A program made the position numbers and the translations under genes. Below the pieces are notes generated by a model. It was given only the letters and a program-made list of their open reading frames with translations. It was not told where the DNA came from and ran no database searches. Positions 4,582 to 35,121 of a DNA stretch of 37,292 nucleotides are shown here, piece by piece. The DNA is from a virus: IMG/VR virus record IMGVR_UViG_3300043449_002497, positions 1 through 37,292 of that record. One strand, written 5' to 3'. Position 1 is the first letter of the stretch. Each line of letters opens with the position of its first letter.

Positions 4582-5556
4582 TTATACGCCAAAAAAATCA
4601 CGGAAGCTTTTCTTTTCCGCCGAATTTGCACTGGTTGCCTTAGAAGAAGCACCGGTATCCTTGATGGCAGACTTAACGGGAGTGGGAGCTGACTTAGCCT
4701 TTGCAACGTTCTTCTTGCGAACGCGGCTAAACACTTCCTTGCCAACAATCTTTTCAATAACTTCGTCTGGCATTACAGCAAACATTTCACGAAGATCGTT
4801 TTGAATTTCTTCACGAACGAGCGGAAGAACGTCTTCTGGAGAAACATCGATGCCTTCGTTGAGCCCAAGAAGCATGTAGTCAGCCATCTTCTTCACGACA
4901 TACGGAGACTTTGGAAGATCGCTAGATTCAAGCGCTTTGGACATGAGGTTGTCATAACGCTCATATTCAATTTCCTGAAGACGGGCAAATTCTTTTTGAC
5001 GAAGCTCTTCGCGCTCTTGTTCACGCTCTTCCTGAAGCGAACGAAGTTCATTCTCAAGACGCTCTTTTTCAAGCTGTTCTGGTGACTTTTGAGCGTTAGC
5101 AATTTCTTCTTCAATGATTTGAGCAGCAAGTTGCTTAACATCAATACCGATTGAAGGATCGGCAAGAATCTTCTTTGGGTTCTTGCGGAGTTCTTCAAGG
5201 AAATACTTAACTTCTTTTTGAAGCTGAGCGTGTTCGCCCATGCGCTTTTGAGCAGCCTTGGACATTTGAAGCTGACGGGTCATGTATTCAACAGCTTCCG
5301 GATTATCGTCGATTTCAAACGGAAGCTCTTCTTCAAGCTCCTGACCGTCAACCTTGAGCTTGAGCTTTTTAATGCGAGCCGCTTCTTTCTTAGCAGCAGC
5401 GGATTGTGCAGCTTGGGCTTCGGCAGCTTCGCCTTCGGCGGCGGCGCCCTCAAGACCTTCAGCGGCTTGCGTTGACTCTAGTTCAGACGATTCGGAAGAA
5501 GCAGTTGCTTCAGTGGCAGGGGATGCAGATGCAGTAGCAGTAGTAGATTCAGACAT
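4582..5556 (-). CDS. Capsid scaffolding protein
   Basis: The 324-residue protein is acidic and mostly helical. It has a low-complexity Ser/Ala/Glu N terminus (residues 1-55), a central region with EELPFEIDDNPEAVEYMTR, a long charged coiled coil (about residues 160-210, rich in Glu-Arg-Gln), and a basic C terminus with RVRKKNVAKAKSAP. An acidic body with a basic, coat-binding tail is characteristic of phage scaffolds. The position upstream of the capsid genes supports this. The start is supported by GAAAGG 6 bases before the ATG, and a promoter element lies about 65 bases upstream. Confidence 0.85.
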   Translation of the reverse strand: MSESTTATASASPATEATASSESSELESTQAAEGLEGAAAEGEAAEAQAAQSAAAKKEAARIKKLKLKVDGQELEEELPFEIDDNPEAVEYMTRQLQMSKAAQKRMGEHAQLQKEVKYFLEELRKNPKKILADPSIGIDVKQLAAQIIEEEIANAQKSPEQLEKERLENELRSLQEEREQEREELRQKEFARLQEIEYERYDNLMSKALESSDLPKSPYVVKKMADYMLLGLNEGIDVSPEDVLPLVREEIQNDLREMFAVMPDEVIEKIVGKEVFSRVRKKNVAKAKSAPTPVKSAIKDTGASSKATSANSAEKKSFRDFFGV

Positions 5557-19672: not shown

Positions 19673-20062
19673 TTAAACGATCGTTAAATAATGGAGAATG
19701 AAAACATCCCCCTCTTCAATAAATCCATCTAATTCCTTACCATTCCAATAAAGGACGGTAGAGTCTAGCGTAGAAATATCAAAACCTAATCCTTTGATTT
19801 GAGGTCCACCCCCGTGGCCTATAACTAATGAGATATTATCGGGTTCAATTGGTGTTGCCTGTAAAACAAGCTGCTTATTGGCTGCTTCTTGTGCAGTAAT
19901 TACCCGTGGTTCAATCTTTAGGGTTGCTCTTCCTGAAACTTTAACTTCAGTGCCGTTATCCTTCTTCATATAAAGCTCACCGTCTGGTTTTACATAGACG
20001 GAAACCTTGTTTGTTGAAGGAGTAGAAGGTGTTGTCCTTTTATTAAAGATTAATTGGGACAT
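19673..20062 (-). CDS. Small structural protein, 129 aa
   Basis: The N terminus MSQLIFNKRTTPSTPSTNKVSVYVKPDGELY with KKDNGTEVKV resembles the anchor found at the start of many phage fibre-associated proteins. The C-terminal half (STVLYWNGKELDGFIEEGD) is beta-rich. It shares one base with the upstream gene's stop. It is likely a virion component between portal and fibre genes; no enzymatic motif is visible. Confidence 0.72.
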   Translation of the reverse strand: MSQLIFNKRTTPSTPSTNKVSVYVKPDGELYMKKDNGTEVKVSGRATLKIEPRVITAQEAANKQLVLQATPIEPDNISLVIGHGGGPQIKGLGFDISTLDSTVLYWNGKELDGFIEEGDVFILHYLTIV

Positions 20063-20289
20063 TATGTCACCTCCACAGAGCTATCTGTGTAGATTGAAAA
20101 TGCGCCGGTATCGGTAATCTCAACAAAATCAATAACAGTAAGGTTATTGACCATTAATTCTAACGGAGCAGGTACGATCAGAGCACTGATCGTAGCAGAA
20201 CTACCATCGCCAATAACGACAGTAGTGCTTTTCTTTTTTTTGCCAATTACCATTTCAGTGGTAACTGGATCAAACTGCAAGTTAAACAT
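20062..20289 (-). CDS. Small structural protein, 75 aa
   Basis: A short beta-rich protein (LQFDPVTTEMVIGKKKKSTTVVIGDG; TVIDFVEITDTGAFSIYTDSS) translationally coupled to its downstream neighbour. It lies 4 bases after the 124-aa gene. I recognise no family; location suggests a minor virion part. Confidence 0.68.
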   Translation of the reverse strand: MFNLQFDPVTTEMVIGKKKKSTTVVIGDGSSATISALIVPAPLELMVNNLTVIDFVEITDTGAFSIYTDSSVEVT

Positions 20290-20293
20290 TGTT

Positions 20294-20668
20294 TTAGTTT
20301 ACCGTAAGGCTTAGTATCTCATCTTTATCGGTGTTAGTATAGACAATATTTACTGTCGCTACAGTAACACCACTTGATCCCCCTCTTTTATAGACATAAG
20401 TACTGGTAGTATCAGTGTGACTACCGCTAAAGTAGTCAAACGCTTGTTTTACTAAACCAGCACTTACTCTAAGTGATCCATCCGGATTCACTTGTGTTAA
20501 GTTTGTCCCATCCCCTAGTCTAATCGAATCGTCTTTGTCGGAAATAGCGACTTCCATCGCATTTGCAACGACCCTAGCTTCTGTTTGGACCCTGAGTGCG
20601 TCGGCGCTTTCATCGAAAGCCCGTTGCATGATTTGATTTTGGTCTAACGAACTATAGTTTCGTGGCAT
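20294..20668 (-). CDS. Small structural protein, 124 aa
   Basis: The start MPRNYSSLDQNQIMQRAFDESADALR is followed by DDSIRLGDGTN and a beta-rich C terminus (TSTYVYKRGGSSGVTVATVN). Proteins with this NYSSLDQNQI-type start and DDSIRLGDG segment recur next to head and tail genes of many environmental phages, without a known role. It follows a TTTAACAACTTTAGG element, so it probably heads the operon that ends with the giant fibre. Confidence 0.75.
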   Translation of the reverse strand: MPRNYSSLDQNQIMQRAFDESADALRVQTEARVVANAMEVAISDKDDSIRLGDGTNLTQVNPDGSLRVSAGLVKQAFDYFSGSHTDTTSTYVYKRGGSSGVTVATVNIVYTNTDKDEILSLTVN

Positions 20669-25119: not shown

Positions 25120-25641
25120 ATGCCATTTAATTACAAAATATGCAGAATGTGCTCATCGTTTATGGGTCTTCACCCAAGCGCCCAAGGATGGTTAAAGTGT
25201 CCATCCTGTGGATTTTCAAAAATAGAAAAGCAAGTTATTACACAAGCCGCCTATCTAATGGGTAGAGACTCACAGTATCCTCAAGAGTTAACCCAAGAAA
25301 TACTAGATAATATTATCATACTTCTTGAAAAAGTAAACGCTCTTCTTTGGGAGTTAAAAATCACAAAGGCCGAAGTTTCGTCCGGATGGCGTCCTGCTGC
25401 TATAAACTCTAAGGTCGCAAACGCGGCCAAGAAAAGCCTACACATGACCGGAAAGGCCGTCGATATAAAAGATGATTCCGGACAATCGCTTGCTGCTAAA
25501 ATTTTATCTCAACCGGATCTGCTTAAAAAATACGAGTTGTGGTTAGAAGACCCCGCGCACACAAAGGGTAAAAATACAAATTGGGTACACCTTGATATTG
25601 GCTCAAGGTCCGATCGTCCGCTAAGAATGTTTAAACCTTAG
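25120..25641 (+). CDS. Endolysin: M15-type peptidoglycan peptidase with N-terminal zinc ribbon
   Basis: The start is the ATG at 25120, preceded by GAGGG; longer in-frame starts lie inside the promoter element. The 173-residue protein has four cysteines (C8, C11, C27, C30) forming a zinc ribbon. Its M15 domain carries SSGWRP, SLHMTGKAVDIKD (zinc ligands H108 and D115) and NWVHLDIG (H157). The family cleaves peptide cross-links or stem peptides (D-Ala-D-Ala carboxypeptidase or L-Ala-D-Glu endopeptidase). There is no signal peptide, so release would need a holin. It is the only plus-strand gene of the left 29 kb and overlaps the end of the convergent PLP-enzyme gene. Confidence 0.9.
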   Translation: MPFNYKICRMCSSFMGLHPSAQGWLKCPSCGFSKIEKQVITQAAYLMGRDSQYPQELTQEILDNIIILLEKVNALLWELKITKAEVSSGWRPAAINSKVANAAKKSLHMTGKAVDIKDDSGQSLAAKILSQPDLLKKYELWLEDPAHTKGKNTNWVHLDIGSRSDRPLRMFKP

Positions 25642-26576
25642 ACAATAGAATCCATTGGAAGTTTCTTTTTTGCAAATAGATTGTGAAAAGAAATAAAGCT
25701 TTCAGAAGAACAGCCGATATTAAGACGAAATGTTCCAGATGGACCACGAAGAGTTCTACCGTCTAATCCAATGATTTCTTTTGGACAGTCTCCCTCGGCC
25801 CACAGAAACATTCCTGCCGTTTTAATGATTTTGAATGGCAGCCGTTTTTCAATTTCATCAAGCAACGACATTCGGTCGTCTAGTGTTTTTTTGCCATCAT
25901 CAAATACGGTATAGTCGGCATTTAGCTGACTAGAAAGAACCGCTTCTGCGGTAAGCTGAGAATCAATAGACAGTCCGCTGGTGCTATACTCAATATATTG
26001 CTCTAACCCACGCGCAATCATTTCGTCTTCCAAAATCGCCCAACCAATACGGGTACTCGCATGTCCAGTCGCCTTGCTAAGAGAAAACACCATTGCAGGG
26101 TGATCAAAGTTTTTCACCTTGGCAAGATACTGAGGCCAGTTATAAGTAAGATCCAAGATCGCGGTGTTTTTATGTACAATCTGCGATCCGTCTGGGTTGT
26201 TAGGGACGGTTGTAATAATAAGCGAGTTTTTCTTTTTAGCCCACTCAAGTCCAGCAAATTCTGAAAGATGAGGGAACCGAGAAAAATGAGGAGGATTAGC
26301 CCAAGCCGCGCCCGCCCCGGTTTCTTTCTTTAAAACGTGGAGAAGTCCAAGGATAATCTGAGTGGCTCCCGCAGCAACAACAATATGTTTACCGTCGGTT
26401 TCGGCGTTTTGTTCTTGGTTATGAATGTCTCGAATAATTTGTTTAAGAGATTCACGAGAACCAAAATTATACGTCATATCGCGGTCAATTTGACGAGCAA
26501 CTTTAATTCCATGCGTTTCCCAGTATGGAACTAAAAAAGCCGGAGATCCCCATGACATATCAATTTTATTCATCAC
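25638..26576 (-). CDS. PLP-dependent enzyme, alliinase/tryptophan-aminotransferase-like (fold type I)
   Basis: The 312-residue protein shows fold-type-I aminotransferase motifs: VVAAGATQII (PLP phosphate loop, about 66-75), PPHFSRFP, TVPNNPDG (123-130), LDLTYNWPQ with candidate Asp142 and Tyr145, and FSLSKATGHASTRIGWA with the Schiff-base Lys168 and Arg176. FRLNIG near the end holds the substrate-carboxylate Arg. S-K-x-T-G-H-x-x-x-R-x-GWA is specifically like the alliinase/TAA1 group. At 312 residues it is shorter than usual (near 400). The reaction could be transamination or C-S lysis; the substrate is unknown. It sits in a late operon with two genes of unknown function. Confidence 0.85.
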   Translation of the reverse strand: MMNKIDMSWGSPAFLVPYWETHGIKVARQIDRDMTYNFGSRESLKQIIRDIHNQEQNAETDGKHIVVAAGATQIILGLLHVLKKETGAGAAWANPPHFSRFPHLSEFAGLEWAKKKNSLIITTVPNNPDGSQIVHKNTAILDLTYNWPQYLAKVKNFDHPAMVFSLSKATGHASTRIGWAILEDEMIARGLEQYIEYSTSGLSIDSQLTAEAVLSSQLNADYTVFDDGKKTLDDRMSLLDEIEKRLPFKIIKTAGMFLWAEGDCPKEIIGLDGRTLRGPSGTFRLNIGCSSESFISFHNLFAKKKLPMDSIV

Positions 26577-28632: not shown

Positions 28633-29169
28633 TCACGAATCTCCAAGTCTAGGAATGTCATACCTTTCTAGGTAGGACTTGGTAAGGGTGTTTGTGGCAT
28701 ACTGAGGGATAATGTATTCCTTTTCTTTGTAGGTGTTAGTAATCCATTGATTGGCTAGACCCAGATTACGGAATACGCCTATCACATATCCCCGATTACG
28801 AGTATTAACGGCTTTAACGAGTACATTCCCTAATTCGTCGTATTCCACGCGTAAACGGTATTTAACGGCGTTGATCTTACCATATAAGCCGTATCCCTTA
28901 GCCACGTATTGATCGACCCAGTAACGGGTTCTTACGCTCAATGCGTTACGTTCTTGTACCTCCTCCAGCACAACGAACCTAAGCTTCTCCCGGTCGATAA
29001 TCATATTCATACTCGTATGCGTCTTCTCTTTGAGTTGACGTATTAGCTTCCCTAATGACTCAACGACGCAAGACGAATGGGTGATGAGAACCACCCTGTC
29101 TTGGTCGTTTATCAGACCGATTACTGCCATTTTAGGCAGGGATAAGAGAGTTTTAACGTCTACTTCCAT
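28633..29169 (-). CDS. Hypothetical protein, 178 aa, possibly degenerate GIY-YIG-like fold
   Basis: The N-terminal half has the order of a GIY-YIG domain without its key letters: AVIGLINDQDRVVLIT, then helix VVESLGKLIRQLKE, strand LRFVVLEEVQE and helix RTRYWVDQYVAKGYGLYGK. The C-terminal half (KYRLRVEYDELGNVLVK, VIGVFRNLGLANQWI) is unassigned. Neither GIY/YIG nor the catalytic Arg/Glu is evident, so nuclease activity is not claimed. Its ATG abuts a TTAACAACTATAGG element, and it is the first gene of the leftward arm. Confidence 0.6.
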   Translation of the reverse strand: MEVDVKTLLSLPKMAVIGLINDQDRVVLITHSSCVVESLGKLIRQLKEKTHTSMNMIIDREKLRFVVLEEVQERNALSVRTRYWVDQYVAKGYGLYGKINAVKYRLRVEYDELGNVLVKAVNTRNRGYVIGVFRNLGLANQWITNTYKEKEYIIPQYATNTLTKSYLERYDIPRLGDS

Positions 29170-29170
29170 A

Positions 29171-29187
29171 CCTATAGTTGTTAAAAG
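29171..29187 (-). promoter_or_regulatory. Putative promoter element abutting the first leftward gene
   Basis: The minus strand reads TTTTAACAACTATAGGTATG, in which the final ATG starts the 178-aa gene. If transcription began at the GG after TATA, as in T7-type promoters, the mRNA leader would be about three bases. Confidence 0.6.
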
Positions 29188-29487
29188 TTTCTATCTACTG
29201 TGAGCAATATATAAGAATGTTAAGTAGTATTAACACGATTCTGTAAAATCGCGTATATAGGATGGTATTAAATTCGACGTTTCTATACCTTTGAAACCTA
29301 AGAATTTGCGTGTGGGCTAGAACTTGTTCAGTCTACATCAAAATGCCACCTACCCCCCCTATACGACGCTCTCGCGACTCTATATGCGCGCGACTCTTAC
29401 TGTTTCCCTCAGTCGGGGCAGTTCAATCGCGCACGGGCGTGCGGGCGCGTGCGTGCGCTGCGCGCGGGTGCGTTCCTTTAAACAGGG
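29188..29487. other. Non-coding stretch between divergent arms, left part
   Basis: This has AT-rich sequence to about 29300, then increasingly GC-rich sequence. An imperfect hairpin (CACGATTCTGTAAAATCGCG) lies near 29234. A GC-alternating stretch at 29425-29470 contains CGCACG-GG-CGTGCG (29430-29443). Open frames here lack ribosome sites and have atypical composition; I call no gene. Confidence 0.6.
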
Positions 29488-29783
29488 TGTGTCCGGCCTG
29501 ACACATCTGTTATCATTACACTGGGTTTGGGATGACACATCGTGGGGCGTGTCGGGGATGACATAGCACTCCGCTAACATCCTGTGTCACTCTTGACCTA
29601 CTGTTACGCCAACAGTGTGTCACCTGTTTTTGCGATTTTCCTTAGGACGGGCGATCGGGGTTCGGTCCATACCTACCCTGCATCCTTAGGTTGTCGTCGT
29701 TCCTAGGGCATTTCTGAGCGGCTAATAGGCCCCGGTTTGTATCATTATACATGGATTGCGATGGGTGTGTCACTGGCGACACA
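29488..29783. repeat. Cluster of TGTGTCA / TGACACA elements
   Basis: Copies or near-copies occur at 29488-29493, 29500-29505, 29533-29539, 29548-29553, 29559-29563, 29583-29589, 29616-29622, 29766-29772 and 29778-29783, on both strands. Two pairs form inverted repeats (29488-29505 and 29766-29783). Such clusters serve as operators or replication-initiator sites; which applies here is unknown. Confidence 0.6.
29744..29773 (-). promoter_or_regulatory. Possible sigma-70-type promoter reading left
   Basis: On the minus strand GTGACA (29773-29768) and TATAAT (29749-29744) are separated by 18 bases. The -35 hexamer overlaps a TGTGTCA element, so a protein bound there could regulate it. It is the only near-consensus host-type promoter I found in the gap. 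Confidence 0.4.
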
Positions 29784-29868
29784 TGCCTTTCTTTTTTCTT
29801 GCGGTTTGCCTTGACCCGTGTTTTACTTATCCTGCACACGCAGGGGAGCCGGGTTCTCTGACTCCCAC

Positions 29869-29931
29869 TGGGGGCTTTTCCGCTAAGCCCTTGAATTCAT
29901 TAAACAATAATTTTTCTTTTTTTTCTTTTGC
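29869..29931 (+). terminator. Hairpin followed by a T-rich tract
   Basis: GGGCTT pairs with AAGCCC (about 29872-29890, loop TTCCGCT). A T-rich run lies about 20 bases further on (29909-29931). The spacing is too long for a canonical terminator, so its role is open. Confidence 0.3.
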
Positions 29932-29934
29932 ATT

Positions 29935-30456
29935 ATTTCCGGGTTGTGGGATGCTGGATTCACCGGCCCTGACCCGCACACCACGCGGAAGGCCGGGAGA
30001 CCGGATGGCCCCTGCATCCGGCGCGCTGAGGGTATCGCCTGACCGGCACGAACCCCGCGCCTGACCCCCGGACTTGCGCTTCCAGCGCGAGACCCCGGGA
30101 CGACGGCCCGGGCGGGATGCAGTGGGGGCGACTAAGCAAGTGCCCGGACCGCGTAGGTCCGGCCGCTCTGACGCCCCGGCGCATTACATAGGCACCTCCA
30201 GCACCACGCGGGAACGCGTGGCGCGGTCGCAGGAACCAAGCGACTGGGGTAATAGCCTACTGAAGACGGTAAAGCCACCGCCGGACGCGCACGACGCGCA
30301 AACACGGTACGGACCTTTACTCGGGAATGACGCGGCAAGCTACCAGAAGCGCATGAAACAGTGCGCGGGGTGCGGCGGGTCGAGTCGAACCCCCGGGTAA
30401 GGGTACAGGGCGAAGTCCGATTTATTCAGTAGGTCGCGCGTGATGCGTCACGCGCA
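29935..30456 (+). ncRNA. Candidate large structured RNA, GC-rich and hairpin-dense
   Basis: By hand count 30001-30420 is about 68% GC, far above neighbouring genes. Perfect stems include 30001-30007/30015-30021, 30073-30080/30084-30091 (one G-U), 30094-30099/30107-30112, 30144-30150/30156-30162, 30204-30210/30215-30221 (GGAA tetraloop), 30226-30230/30240-30244 and 30436-30443/30448-30455. An outer stem, 30125-30130 with 30172-30177, encloses the 30144 hairpin, giving a nested domain. No frame has a ribosome site or plausible protein. The plus strand is preferred because a terminator-like hairpin follows at 30484, but strand and ends are inferred. It matches no class I can recognise. Confidence 0.55.
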
Positions 30457-30483
30457 AACATCAGTTCAAACCAATTAAGTTTG

Positions 30484-30528
30484 AGGGGTGCGTTAATCTT
30501 AACAGGTTGACGCACCCCTTGATGTTTC
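30484..30528 (+). terminator. Terminator-like hairpin before the early genes
   Basis: A perfect 10-bp stem AGGGGTGCGT (30484-30493) with ACGCACCCCT (30510-30519) around a 16-base loop, followed by TGATGTTTCTTTC. It could end the candidate RNA or act as a leader attenuator for the rightward genes. Confidence 0.5.
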
Positions 30529-30610
30529 TTTCGAGCGTTTCCTGTAAGCTTTAAAGTTTGCCGCCTATCATGTCGGTATGCGGTAATGCACAAAACGGAA
30601 GGAAAACCCA

Positions 30611-30865
30611 ATGTCTACCAAGTCCAATGTCCAGCTCCAACAGGAACTTGCCGCCGCTCTCGAAGTAGTAAAGGCACTCAAGACTCAAATTGGTCGGCCT
30701 CTCAGGCTCGAAAAGAGTCAAAAAGGCGGGGTTTCAATCTATGGTCTGCAGCGTTTCCCTGTCACCCTCTATCCGAATCAGTGGAAGAAGGTTTTTGCAA
30801 TGAGCGAAGAAATTCAGGCTTTCATTGCCAAGAATTGCCCGGAGTCTGAGGAAGAAGCCGCATAA
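30611..30865 (+). CDS. Small early-type protein, 84 aa (LQRFPVTLY family)
   Basis: The protein has an N-terminal helix (NVQLQQELAAALEVVKALKT) and a conserved-looking block YGLQRFPVTLYPNQWKKVFAM. I recognise the G-L-Q-R-F-P-V-T-L-Y-x-x-QW pattern from small proteins of many phages, where its role is unknown. The start at 30611 is supported by GGAAGGA 8 bases upstream. It is the first gene of the rightward arm. Confidence 0.78.
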   Translation: MSTKSNVQLQQELAAALEVVKALKTQIGRPLRLEKSQKGGVSIYGLQRFPVTLYPNQWKKVFAMSEEIQAFIAKNCPESEEEAA

Positions 30866-30890
30866 GCTACTCCCTCACCCAACAAACCAA

Positions 30891-30928
30891 GGGGAGAGTG
30901 TGCCCAGTGTACGCTCTCCCCTAAACTT
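30891..30928 (+). terminator. Intercistronic hairpin, possible terminator
   Basis: GGGGAGAGTGT (30891-30901) pairs with ACGCTCTCCCC (30911-30921) with one G-U pair, then TAAACTTTTCC. It separates the first two early genes. A short U-run makes partial termination or RNA stabilisation possible. Confidence 0.55.
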
Positions 30929-30946
30929 TTCCCCAAGAGGTGTCCC

Positions 30947-31174
30947 ATGAAGTCTTATCGTATCCGCACCAAGGCCGGAGTGTATGCTGGAAACGCCATC
31001 AAAATCGATCGCTTCGGAGAGATGCGCCTGTCTGGTTTCGCGCCCACGACTAACCGGATGTTCGCACGGGTGTACTCTGAGGAAGACACCTACCAGATGC
31101 GGGCGGATATTATCCGTCTCGCCCAGTTTGTGAGGGAGTCGGTGGAAGACTTCTCGCTGGAAGAAGTGGCATAA
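30947..31174 (+). CDS. Small early-type protein, 75 aa
   Basis: The product reads MKSYRIRTKAGVYAGNAIK, then a central FGEMRLSGFAPTTNRMFARV and an acidic helical C terminus. AGAGG lies 8 bases before the ATG. No family is recognised. The following 93 bases contain only short GC-rich hairpins and the next ribosome site. Confidence 0.7.
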   Translation: MKSYRIRTKAGVYAGNAIKIDRFGEMRLSGFAPTTNRMFARVYSEEDTYQMRADIIRLAQFVRESVEDFSLEEVA

Positions 31175-31267
31175 GCTAACCCCGACGCGCGAAAAACCGC
31201 GCCCCGTGTAGGAGCCGAGCGAGGGAGAGTCGGCCCAACTTGTCTAGCTCAACCAAAGGAGGTCCGT

Positions 31268-31462
31268 ATGAAGTGTCCCAAGTGTCCCGTCTGTAACTCT
31301 GTCCGACTGACCACGATTCAAGCCACACAAGTAGCAGGGAATCTCATGAGACACATGGGATGCGTCGCCTGTCTTCACAGCTGGGTGATTGACCTCGGCA
31401 AGTCCGAAGTAATCTTCGTTGACTTCAAGAGAAAGATTGTTCTGGAAAAGAAAGCTAGCTAA
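31268..31462 (+). CDS. Zinc-ribbon protein, 64 aa
   Basis: Cysteine pairs CPKCPVC (residues 3-9) and CVACLHSW (about 32-39) form a typical zinc ribbon, followed by a strand with VIDLGKSEVIFVDF. A near-perfect ribosome site (AAAGGAGG) precedes the ATG. Such small ribbons in early regions often bind host RNA polymerase or other host proteins; no target can be named here. Confidence 0.75.
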   Translation: MKCPKCPVCNSVRLTTIQATQVAGNLMRHMGCVACLHSWVIDLGKSEVIFVDFKRKIVLEKKAS

Positions 31463-31482
31463 CCAACCAAAGGAGAACCACC

Positions 31483-31815
31483 ATGCCGATCTTCACAATT
31501 TCAAAAGAAACATGGGAAGTAATCATGAGTAACCGTGCGAAAGCTAAGGAGCTTTTCGCTGGGGAGCGCGTCATGTTTTTGGATGGGCGAGGGCTGTCTG
31601 TCGGAGAAGTCGTGACTTGCGACGCGTGTCCGAATGTTTCGACAATCAATGTCGGATGGCATAAGATGCCCACCGAAACCGAGCTGCGCACTCTTCGTTT
31701 TTGTAAGTCAACCCGGTTTCTCATGCCAGAAGAAATTTACCCATACGACGAAGATGGGAGCGGCGACACTCTTTGTCCTGAGTGCCGAGCAAAACGGGAA
31801 ACAAAAGTTAGCTAA
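31483..31815 (+). CDS. Small protein with Cys-pair metal site, 110 aa
   Basis: CDAC (about residues 46-49) and CPEC (101-104) could bind zinc. Between them lies GWHKMPTETELRTLRFCKS. An in-frame ATG at 31525 exists, but the ribosome site AAAGGAGAACC favours 31483. It has no recognised family; it adds to the run of Cys-pair proteins in this arm. Confidence 0.72.
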   Translation: MPIFTISKETWEVIMSNRAKAKELFAGERVMFLDGRGLSVGEVVTCDACPNVSTINVGWHKMPTETELRTLRFCKSTRFLMPEEIYPYDEDGSGDTLCPECRAKRETKVS

Positions 31816-31848
31816 CACAACACAGCCAAATGGCCGGGAGGAATCAAC

Positions 31849-33045
31849 ATGAGCACGAGTCTTAAAATCATTACTTATTTTTACAGTGACAGTCACGGGA
31901 GGCTTGCCAAAGCTAACGCCGACAGCTACAAAAAGTACCTTGCTACCAAGGCCCTTGCTCAACGGGTTATGAAGGATGCTAAGAGTACGCTGGTTGGTAC
32001 TGCAGATGTAGCGTATGATCTTAATCAAGCAATCCGTAACTATCGAAGCAGACACTTCAAGGGTCGGATGGTTAAAGAATACACCTTGACTTTCAAGTAC
32101 AACGGCGAAGATTATACCGCCCGAGGTACCACTGCTAATATTGCAAAACAAAACAAGCGTCAAGTGATTCAAAGTATTCGTCATGATTTCAGGACGCCGC
32201 GCGTAAGACTGCGCGAACATCCAACACGCAACTATGGTTATGTTAGAAGGTCGCTCGTGGGTGGCGTGCATATGGAGCCGGGGTTTTATTCCACGCTGTA
32301 TACTCGCCGACTCTCTCGCCTTGTGTATGAGCCAAAGCATCCCAAGACCACCGAGCATCATGTTGGTATCGAGCTTGAGTTTACTGCGTTGGCAAACCGC
32401 GACACTCTCGGTGCTGCGTTGTTTAATGCTGGTCTTGCCCAGTTTGTTACCCTGAAGGGAGATGGTTCTATTCGGATTGAAAAAGCTAATCACTACGCTC
32501 ATGAGCTTGCAATCTGCGTACCACAATCCAAGGTTGAAGAAGTGGTCGCTGTTGTAACCAAGGTGCTGGCTGCACATTCGGCAAGCGTGAATAAGTCAAC
32601 GGGTATGCATACTCATATCGATGTGCGTAACCGTGATCGAAGCAAGGTCTTTAGTCGGCTGGTGGCAGCGCAAGGTATCTTATACGCCATGCAGCCTAAG
32701 TCGCGGCGTGACAATAATTACTGCAAGCGCACCAAGTCACGCGACTTGTCCACGGCTCGAAACGCTGGTCGCTATCAGGGCGTTAACCCCGAGGCTGCAA
32801 GCAAGTACAACACCATCGAAGTCCGGCTGCACGCCGGAACGGTATCGTTTGACAAAATTGTAAATTGGGTTAAGCTCCTGATTGCAATTGTCGATGGTGA
32901 TTACATCGAGCCGACCCGCGCACCTCGCAAGCTCGACACCTTCTGCGAAGCGTATAAGATCGGAAGCGAACTTCGGTCTTATATCAAGTCTCGAATGGAT
33001 AAGTTCGGATCGGTTGAATCAATTGAAGAAGTTGAGTCTGCTTAA
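31849..33045 (+). CDS. Amidoligase family enzyme (COOH-NH2 ligase)
   Basis: The 398-residue protein has a basic N-terminal region and an amidoligase core (about 168-350). HVGIELEF (171-178), LKGDGSIRI (202-210), HEL (219-220 region), GMHTHIDVR (252-260), RYQGVN (308-313) and TIEVRLHAGT (322-331) match the signature strands of this GCS-like ATP-dependent ligase family. These enzymes join a carboxylate and an amine through an acyl-phosphate. GGGAGGA precedes the ATG. The next gene is a class II glutamine amidotransferase, which could supply ammonia, so amidation of a peptide or peptidoglycan group is the simplest idea; the substrate is unknown. Confidence 0.88.
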   Translation: MSTSLKIITYFYSDSHGRLAKANADSYKKYLATKALAQRVMKDAKSTLVGTADVAYDLNQAIRNYRSRHFKGRMVKEYTLTFKYNGEDYTARGTTANIAKQNKRQVIQSIRHDFRTPRVRLREHPTRNYGYVRRSLVGGVHMEPGFYSTLYTRRLSRLVYEPKHPKTTEHHVGIELEFTALANRDTLGAALFNAGLAQFVTLKGDGSIRIEKANHYAHELAICVPQSKVEEVVAVVTKVLAAHSASVNKSTGMHTHIDVRNRDRSKVFSRLVAAQGILYAMQPKSRRDNNYCKRTKSRDLSTARNAGRYQGVNPEAASKYNTIEVRLHAGTVSFDKIVNWVKLLIAIVDGDYIEPTRAPRKLDTFCEAYKIGSELRSYIKSRMDKFGSVESIEEVESA

Positions 33046-33068
33046 CAATAACCAAAGGAGATAACAAT

Positions 33069-34055
33069 ATGTGTAAGGTAATGATGATGGCTGGTGTAAC
33101 TGCAGAAACCCGCGAGAAAGCGTGGACCTTCGTTAAGGAGATGGCAAAAGAACTAAGCCCCGGCAATCAAGACGGGTGTGGATATTCGGCAATGGCCGCC
33201 GATGGTAGTATCTTCGGTGAGCGGTGGCACCTTAACGCGGAAGCTTTTGTTAACCGCGAACTCACTCCACCAATCAGTGACTTCGAGGGCGGTTTGCTTG
33301 AGCAATACCTTGGAGCAATCAAGCGCAAGCAAACTCCTGTTAAGTACTCCAAGTTCGGCTCGCTTCAATTCGATTCGATGACTGCCATCACACTGCACAC
33401 TAGGTTTGCAACGAGCGGCAAAGAGTTTGTTAACACTCATCCGTTTGTTGTCGGTTCAACGTCTCTTATTCACAACGGGGTTATCAGCAATGCATCTCAG
33501 CTTGAGATCAAACAATCGACCTGCGACTCTGAGGCAATCTTGAATCTTTATGTCAAGCACAAGGTGGCCGATGGCATTAAGTCAATTCAACGAGTAGCTG
33601 ACAAGTTGCAAGGTTACTATGCTTGCGGTGTGTTTGCGCAGTCTAAGGCACACGGCGCAATCTTGGATATCTTCAAGTGTGATGCAGCAAACCTGCAAGC
33701 CGCCTATGTCAAGGAGCTTAGGACGCTCGTATTCTCCACGAACATCAATGATATTAAGTCGGTTTGTACTCGTCTCGGGTTTACGGTTGTTCACGACTTT
33801 ATCTTTGACAACGACACGCTGTTGCGCCTTGATGCAATTGACGGTAGTGTGATTGATTCTGTTAAGTTTGTTTCAACTCAACCAGTCAGCATCACGAGTT
33901 TCAACAAAGGCAAGCACAAGAAAAATCGCAGCTTGCCGAGCCAACCGGTCAGTGCTAAAAGTCCTGTAATGCGCAGCTGGAAAGCGGAAGAAATTGAAGT
34001 TGAACATAACGACTGGTTGTATCAAGGTGACTGGTACGAAAAGCGTAAGAAGTAG
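33069..34055 (+). CDS. Class II glutamine amidotransferase (Ntn hydrolase)
   Basis: The protein begins MCKVMMMAG, placing the catalytic Cys at residue 2, to be exposed after Met removal. Further class II motifs are GCGYSAM, LHTRFATSG (about 108-116), THPF, LIHNGVISN (oxyanion Asn-Gly, about 133-141) and CDSEAIL (about 151-157). The domain hydrolyses glutamine to release ammonia for a partner synthetase. No synthetase domain is fused: the 328 residues end in a basic Ser/Lys-rich tail. It lies 23 bases after the amidoligase, with AAAGGAGA before the ATG, so the two are one operon and probably one pathway. Confidence 0.9.
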   Translation: MCKVMMMAGVTAETREKAWTFVKEMAKELSPGNQDGCGYSAMAADGSIFGERWHLNAEAFVNRELTPPISDFEGGLLEQYLGAIKRKQTPVKYSKFGSLQFDSMTAITLHTRFATSGKEFVNTHPFVVGSTSLIHNGVISNASQLEIKQSTCDSEAILNLYVKHKVADGIKSIQRVADKLQGYYACGVFAQSKAHGAILDIFKCDAANLQAAYVKELRTLVFSTNINDIKSVCTRLGFTVVHDFIFDNDTLLRLDAIDGSVIDSVKFVSTQPVSITSFNKGKHKKNRSLPSQPVSAKSPVMRSWKAEEIEVEHNDWLYQGDWYEKRKK

Positions 34056-34105
34056 GTCGAATAGTCCCGCGCGATTGAAACAAAAATTTTAGGGGAGAGT
34101 TTATT

Positions 34106-34297
34106 ATGAATAAACTTGTCAAGCTGATTCGTGATGTAGCAGAACAAGCTAATGCTTTGGCCGAGGAAACCGGCAATGACGAACTAAGTGGAAATGCAGC
34201 GTATTTGCTCGCCGTAATTGACTTAGATTACGGAAGTTTCGACAAGGTTGATGAAACTCTTATGTCTTTGGCAGAAAGATTACAAACCCTAAAGTAA
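34106..34297 (+). CDS. Small acidic helical protein, 63 aa
   Basis: Two helices are likely (MNKLVKLIRDVAEQANALAEE; SFDKVDETLMSLAERLQTL). It has AGGGGAGAG before the ATG. No motif is recognised. It follows the amidotransferase by 50 bases and may be cotranscribed. Confidence 0.68.
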   Translation: MNKLVKLIRDVAEQANALAEETGNDELSGNAAYLLAVIDLDYGSFDKVDETLMSLAERLQTLK

Positions 34298-34322
34298 AAC
34301 TTTCGTTGAATAGGAGAAAAAA

Positions 34323-34544
34323 ATGAAATATCACTGGAATCCTAAAAATCCTACTGCACCAAAAAAAGGCTCTCCTGATTTTTCTGGTAAATGGGAAATT
34401 TACGATACCGTATTAGACAAGGAGTTGTATTCGGGTAATTTTGTAAGCTGTTTGGATTGGTTAGAAGAATCAGGAGTTAGTTACTTTATAAATTATAAAA
34501 CTAAAACTTTTTATCTCAACGAAAACGCATACGAAGGGGAATAA
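34323..34544 (+). CDS. Hypothetical protein, 73 aa
   Basis: A Lys/Tyr/Trp-rich product starting MKYHWNPKNPTAPKKGSPDF, with ELYSGNFVSCLDWLEESGV in the middle. TAGGAG precedes the ATG. The gene is more AT-rich than the enzyme genes upstream. No family is recognised. Confidence 0.68.
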   Translation: MKYHWNPKNPTAPKKGSPDFSGKWEIYDTVLDKELYSGNFVSCLDWLEESGVSYFINYKTKTFYLNENAYEGE

Positions 34545-34563
34545 CTTTAAGAGGTTAAAGAAA

Positions 34564-34689: not shown

Positions 34690-35121
34690 ATGAATAATGT
34701 AACCGAACGAGTCTATATCTTTGGGGTCTTTAACTCTAAGCGTAACGCGGCTGCTAACCTTGCGGCACACAAAGAAACGATCGACTCTCTTAAATCTAAA
34801 TACTATACCCCAACCGAGGTCACGCAAAGATATAACGGAATTGACGAGACTTTGATTATGCTTTATGGTACTAACCTAACGCAGCCGGTGATTGACGAGA
34901 TTGCAAAAAACAACTTCCAAGAAAGCTACCTTGTAGTATATCACGATGGGGTGGCGGAGCTTATCTGTTCGGATAAAACCAGTAAAATTATGGGCGACTT
35001 TATTTCCGTGAGTGAATCGGAAGCTAAAGCAAAAGATGGGTACTGCAAAATCGGCAATCAGTATTTTATTATTGATGAGTGTTATTCAGGCAACGCCATT
35101 CCAAAAGAGCTAAAAAAATGA
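34690..35121 (+). CDS. Hypothetical protein, 143 aa (loosely DUF3293-like)
   Basis: An alpha/beta protein: VYIFGVFNSKRNAAANLAAH, YNGIDETLIMLYGTN, ESYLVVYHDGVAELI and YCKIGNQYFIID. The N-x-x-R-N-A-A-N start and the G-x-x-E and Q/E-S-YL segments recall DUF3293-type proteins, a tentative match from memory. The start codon abuts the preceding stop, with GGAGGAG 4 bases upstream. Confidence 0.65.
   Translation: MNNVTERVYIFGVFNSKRNAAANLAAHKETIDSLKSKYYTPTEVTQRYNGIDETLIMLYGTNLTQPVIDEIAKNNFQESYLVVYHDGVAELICSDKTSKIMGDFISVSESEAKAKDGYCKIGNQYFIIDECYSGNAIPKELKK

Follow-up and report, generated by a model that had tools for sequence, protein, structure and literature searches.

The intergenic stretch of about 500 bases described here is very probably a real structured RNA lying outside every catalogued family, as judged from the comparison of two phage genomes. 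What this comparison shows is a conserved fold accompanied by no conserved protein. The compensatory base changes, the lack of coding conservation and the lack of an Rfam match reported below all bear out the preliminary description of the locus, which had suggested a large structured RNA of unrecognised class.

Genomic setting

The window, i.e. the whole stretch of DNA analysed, is a 37,292-base record of an uncultured virus that encodes a P22-type portal and a Terminase_6N large terminase. Its late genes lie on the - strand, up to position 29169, and its early genes on the + strand, from 30611 onwards, the terms early and late being presumptive and resting on gene content. The RNA candidate sits in the divergent gap that separates these two arms, and the coordinates of its features are collected in Table 1. 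The GC content of 29935-30456 is 67.0%, as against 44.1% for the whole window, close to the hand count of about 68% reported earlier for this part of an AT-richer phage.

The gap also holds palindromes of the form GTGTC-N6-GACAC at 29489-29504, 29549-29564 and 29767-29782, two of them exact and one with a single mismatch; with four in the window against 0.6 expected, they are operator-like. Elsewhere, the late arm carries an alliinase-type aminotransferase gene (25638-26576) and the early arm an adjacent amidoligase/glutamine amidotransferase pair (31849-33045 and 33069-34055). The 143-aa protein encoded at 34690-35121 has a weak, sub-cut-off match to the S-adenosylmethionine lyase family (PF23780, E=1e-4), and its gene is a possible anti-restriction gene.

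Table 1. Features of the candidate RNA and its surroundings (window coordinates)
Feature	Position	Strand	Basis or remark
Candidate non-coding RNA	29935-30434	+	No conserved ORF, counterpart in L007, predicted stems; 5' end undefined
Variable 5' half	29945-30115	+	Hairpins predicted in window and L007; helices fitted by hand only
GGAUUC	29956-29961	+	Near 5' end in window and L007
Conserved core, ~320 nt	30116-30434	+	Similarity to L007; covariance model R1
Invariant block CUAAGCAAG	30132-30140	+	Alignment with L007
Invariant block (G)CCGCUYUGACGCC	30162-30175	+	RNAalifold, pair counts
Three-way junction	30196-30249	+	Outer stem CUCC/GGGG plus hairpins B and C; RNAalifold
Hairpin B	30204-30221	+	GGAA (GNRA) loop in window, GGAG in L007
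Hairpin C	30226-30244	+	Near-invariant 9-nt loop AGGAACCRA
Closing helix, 5' strand GCCUACUGAA	30255-30264	+	Partner 30425-30434; pair probability 0.96 in window
Conserved block GACGGUAAAnCCnCC	30265-30279	+	Alignment with L007
Long hairpin arm, 3' domain	30313-30404	+	Pair probability 0.99; similar arm in L007
Inner hairpin of 3' arm	30349-30366	+	Pairing kept in L007 (hand alignment)
Longest invariant block GAAGUCCGAUUUAUU	30412-30426	+	Alignment with L007
Closing helix, 3' strand UUCAGUAGGU	30425-30434	+	Partner 30255-30264
Hairpin, window only	30436-30455	+	Predicted; gap in L007 alignment
Terminator-like hairpin, 19 pairs	30481-30522	+	Poor T tract
Small conserved element	30560-30588	+	Between terminator and first early gene; L007 alignment
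First early gene, 84-aa protein	30611-30865	+	Flanks the RNA, outside it; 70% identical in L007

A conserved core shared by two phages

Relatives of the window were found through its late-arm and early-arm proteins. One of them, IMGVR_UViG_3300013132_000169 (L007), keeps both arms, whose main aligned stretches and flanking genes are about 69-76% identical at the DNA level, and carries a homologous element at the same position in its gap. Part of the element is also present in L006, a sibling contig 98% identical to L007; the comparative evidence consists of only two independent sequences, those of the window and of L007.

Both halves of the core are similar to L007 at 7-8 SD above shuffles; the left intergenic region barely exceeds its shuffles (2.2 SD), and in the 5' half no sequence similarity to L007 above chance was found (alignment z 0.2). 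Five blocks are near-invariant between the two phages, namely CUAAGCAAG, CCGCUnUGACGCC, CAGGAACCnAG, AAGACGGUAAAnCCnCC and GAAGUCCGAUUUAUU. The paired helices that a hand alignment with L007 placed in the 5' half were discounted, because that alignment was fitted by eye to sequence without similarity.

Secondary structure and compensatory changes

The structure was deduced with RNAalifold from a MAFFT alignment that had not been fitted to structure. From the window and L007 the program recovered the three-way junction de novo, and the three stems of this junction show nine two-sided changes with every pair kept. Of the RNAalifold structure, 26 pairs were tested: all 26 form in the window as well as in L007, and in 11 of them both bases are changed. 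When the partners were shifted by 1-3 columns only 33-40% paired, with zero or one two-sided change, and none of 500 shuffles reached the observed result, although these controls overstate the case somewhat since the sequences tested are the two that gave the structure. An earlier version with 25 pairs, drawn up by inspection, gave 92% paired and nine two-sided changes. The preliminary description had stated that the absence of compensatory changes in relatives would count against an RNA; between the window and L007 they are present. The short stems that it described are likewise found, many being predicted with high probability.

The 3' domain is closed by a long-range helix that adjoins invariant blocks and in which all seven contiguous pairs are kept, four of them changed on both sides; with only two sequences 37 of 500 shuffles reach this value, so that the main support for the helix comes from its fixed register and from the slid control. 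Pseudoknots could arise from two more pairings, neither of which contains two-sided changes. One would join 30162-30169 (CCGC-UYU) to AGACGGU at 30264-30270; it competes with a local stem of CGCU with AGYG at 30139-30142, and both are equally consistent with the alignment. The other would join GGAUUC near the 5' end to GAAGUCC at 30412-30418, and is beyond the covariation test because both strands are invariant.

The conserved features are not those first stressed. High GC and a GNRA tetraloop are indeed present in the window, but the RNA of L007 has 54% GC and its GGAG loop departs from the GNRA consensus, so that the tetraloop as such is not conserved. Folding energy alone is weak evidence, because other tiles of the window fold equally well: with its terminator the stretch has a fold z of -7.2 on the + strand and -4.8 on the - strand, whereas 29935-30440, which leaves the terminator out, has -3.5 on the + strand and -1.4 on the - strand. 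Values between -5 and -8 were obtained for several other 500-nt tiles, albeit in a noisy test of 12 shuffles. The one-sided changes give U-G pairs in the + sense and hence point to a + strand RNA. As a separate observation, strong folding is predicted on both strands of 20001-20500, within the late genes (z about -8 and -6; 12 shuffles).

Terminator-like hairpin, promoter-like sites and first early gene

The terminator-like hairpin noticed earlier after the stretch was recovered, and at the same place L007 possesses a canonical terminator of 12 pairs followed by CTTTTTT. Beyond it, the 84-aa protein has distant homologues in ctUh1700 and in an uncultured phage. On the + strand of the window no promoter of known type was recognised upstream of the RNA; in L007 a sigma54-type promoter-like site with one mismatch lies just 5' of the RNA, at 4646-4660.

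Such sites (TGGCAC-N5-TTGC, at most one mismatch) cluster in the L007 gap (4646-4995), which holds the majority of the 12 matches of the locus (1.6 expected). A similar cluster occurs in L004 (3643-4069; nine matches against 1.4 expected), a phage whose late arm is 97% identical to that of the window, and yet no cluster was found in window 29170-30640. The promoter type may have been swapped together with the early module.

Comparison with known RNA families

The Rfam search revealed no family in the window, nothing at E<=10 falling in the region and one chance match falling outside it; no tRNA or tmRNA gene was found in the window either (ARAGORN for tmRNA). Single-family searches on the window and L007 records, with a cut-off of E<=10, returned no match for RNase P (RF00010), tmRNA (RF00023), group I introns (RF00028), GOLLD (RF02032) or ROOL (RF03087). 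The same RNase P model detected 11 of 14 controls, archaeal and B-type ones included, and the tmRNA and group I controls were detected as well; the GOLLD controls responded only below the cut-off, and the ROOL search, which responded in no control genome, carries limited weight. The preliminary description had advised an Rfam search for GOLLD, ROOL, tmRNA and RNase P while claiming membership in neither GOLLD nor ROOL, a caution with which these results agree.

RNase P RNA was considered because ACGGUAAA..CC and a GAA-UCCG-UUAU-like block show a short resemblance to motifs of that RNA. It was rejected on the failed model search with its responding controls; the closing helix of the window RNA, moreover, differs in topology. 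As to group I introns, the element is intergenic and interrupts no gene.

GOLLD and ROOL are phage-borne RNAs of unknown function that often lie near tRNA islands; GOLLD combines a conserved 3' region with a variable 5' region and forms a 14-subunit RNA cage (PMC12286853). Like GOLLD, the window RNA is a large multi-stem phage RNA with a conserved 3' part and a variable 5' part, but it is shorter (many GOLLD RNAs exceed 800 nt), is accompanied by no tRNA gene in the window and is placed ahead of the early operon. With ROOL it shares a phage location, a similar length class (the Rfam model has 574 positions) and several proposed pseudoknots, but it does not match the model and has no tRNA island nearby. 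The window RNA resembles GOLLD and ROOL in kind, and neither of them in sequence or in tested membership.

Distribution

Covariance model R1 (30118-30279) matches only the window, L006 and L007. L004, whose identity to the window extends across the late arm up to 29315, lacks the RNA because its early module differs. The comparison of 29316-34563 with L004 1087-4118 reveals near-identical late arms joined to unrelated early modules, a sharp swap between siblings. The core model found no match in L010, L013, the early region of ctUh1700 or an uncultured early-arm relative; the last two were reached through the 84-aa gene, and ctUh1700 is a complete 44-kb genome whose early arm includes the 84-aa gene family and an amidoligase. 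As the RNA is missing from sibling phages, it is an accessory component of an early module that can be exchanged.

Phage and plasmid records searched with BLASTN yielded chance matches at most, and exact-pattern scans of IMG/VR with the conserved blocks, which detect close relatives only, returned L007, its sibling contig and chance matches. No further copy was found by the core model in 89 sources, for the most part loci of related phages and about 1.1 Mb in all, nor in 783 genomes from the phyla to which two MAGs, one of Bacteroidia and one of Lentisphaeria, belong, a search that excludes little since it had no positive control and the host is not identified. Given the limited reach of these searches, the rarity of the RNA is not proved. 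No description of this RNA was found in the literature covered, from which subscription journals were mostly absent.

Proposed role and alternative explanations

The model that we propose, and consider reasonably probable, is that of a stand-alone, accessory non-coding RNA that is made early and acts in trans, its discreteness, its trans action and its timing being what we infer. The RNA gene, read on the + strand, would open the early arm as a unit of its own, and the transcript would be ended by the gene's own terminator. The core would fold into the three-way junction and the long-range closing helix, probably completed by the pseudoknots, and the invariant loops and single-stranded blocks would constitute contact surfaces. 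Working in trans, the RNA would serve the early stage of infection in an accessory capacity; it might, for instance, bind a factor of the host or of the phage, or self-assemble. We prefer this model because both phages have a terminator, because a conserved element lies between this terminator and the gene, and because of the size of the core. The sigma54-type promoter-like site just ahead of the RNA in L007 also speaks for it; the failure to recognise a promoter in the window and the poor T tract of the window's terminator speak against it.

Its main rival, with which the fixed downstream gene agrees, is a long, cis-acting structured 5' leader of the early operon. Such a leader would control read-through of the terminator into the early genes, either by attenuation or by antitermination in the general manner of the put RNA of phage HK022. 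It would account for an RNA that, in both phages, precedes the first early gene on the same strand, is separated from it by a terminator, and is closely followed by the same gene family; put RNAs, too, are structured RNAs that head an early transcript before a terminator. Known put elements, however, need about 70 nt, far less than the conserved core, a non-exhaustive inspection of the predicted folds revealed no pairing through which the core and the terminator arms could work as a clear switch, and ctUh1700 has the same gene family with no match to the RNA, so that we regard a cis leader as unlikely while giving it real weight. More ambitious than our trans-acting model, and doubtful in our opinion, is the idea that the two elements are the first members of a new class of large phage RNAs with pseudoknots, an RNA machine that would be catalytic or self-assembling like GOLLD and ROOL; in this view the near-invariant loop of hairpin C could make a symmetric GGAACC:GGAACC contact with its like, leaving two A-A mismatches at the centre.

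The remaining explanations deny either the novelty of the RNA or the RNA itself. The RNase P-like short motifs and the contrast between the 3' and 5' parts that recalls GOLLD (PMC12286853) could betray a very divergent RNase P RNA, GOLLD, ROOL, tmRNA or group I intron, which is improbable in view of the failed Rfam and single-family searches and the different topology of the RNase P closing helix. Slightly less credible still is an element acting as DNA, such as a replication origin or a cruciform, in which the pairing would matter at the DNA level: its location in the divergent gap between the arms would be suitable, and compensatory changes by themselves cannot separate RNA from DNA, but the one-sided U-G changes of the + sense become A-C mismatches on the opposite strand, a terminator comes after the fold, which has multiple branches, and the + strand folds better than the - strand. 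Finally, a protein-coding region overlooked by annotation is very improbable. Frames that start with TTG do stay open for up to 108 codons, as expected at high GC, but no frame is conserved in L007, the best six-frame tblastn hit of the stretch against the homologous region having E=0.07 as against E=2e-30 for the neighbouring 84-aa gene in the same comparison, and the base changes track pairing; the earlier opinion that the stretch encodes no credible protein is thus upheld.

Conclusion

Few large structured RNAs are known from phages, and their roles are open. The compact core described here, with its mapped helices and invariant loops, belongs to a module that is missing in a near-identical sibling, and it thereby offers a defined object of study. 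If confirmed, it would indicate that such RNAs can head an early transcription unit, away from tRNA islands.
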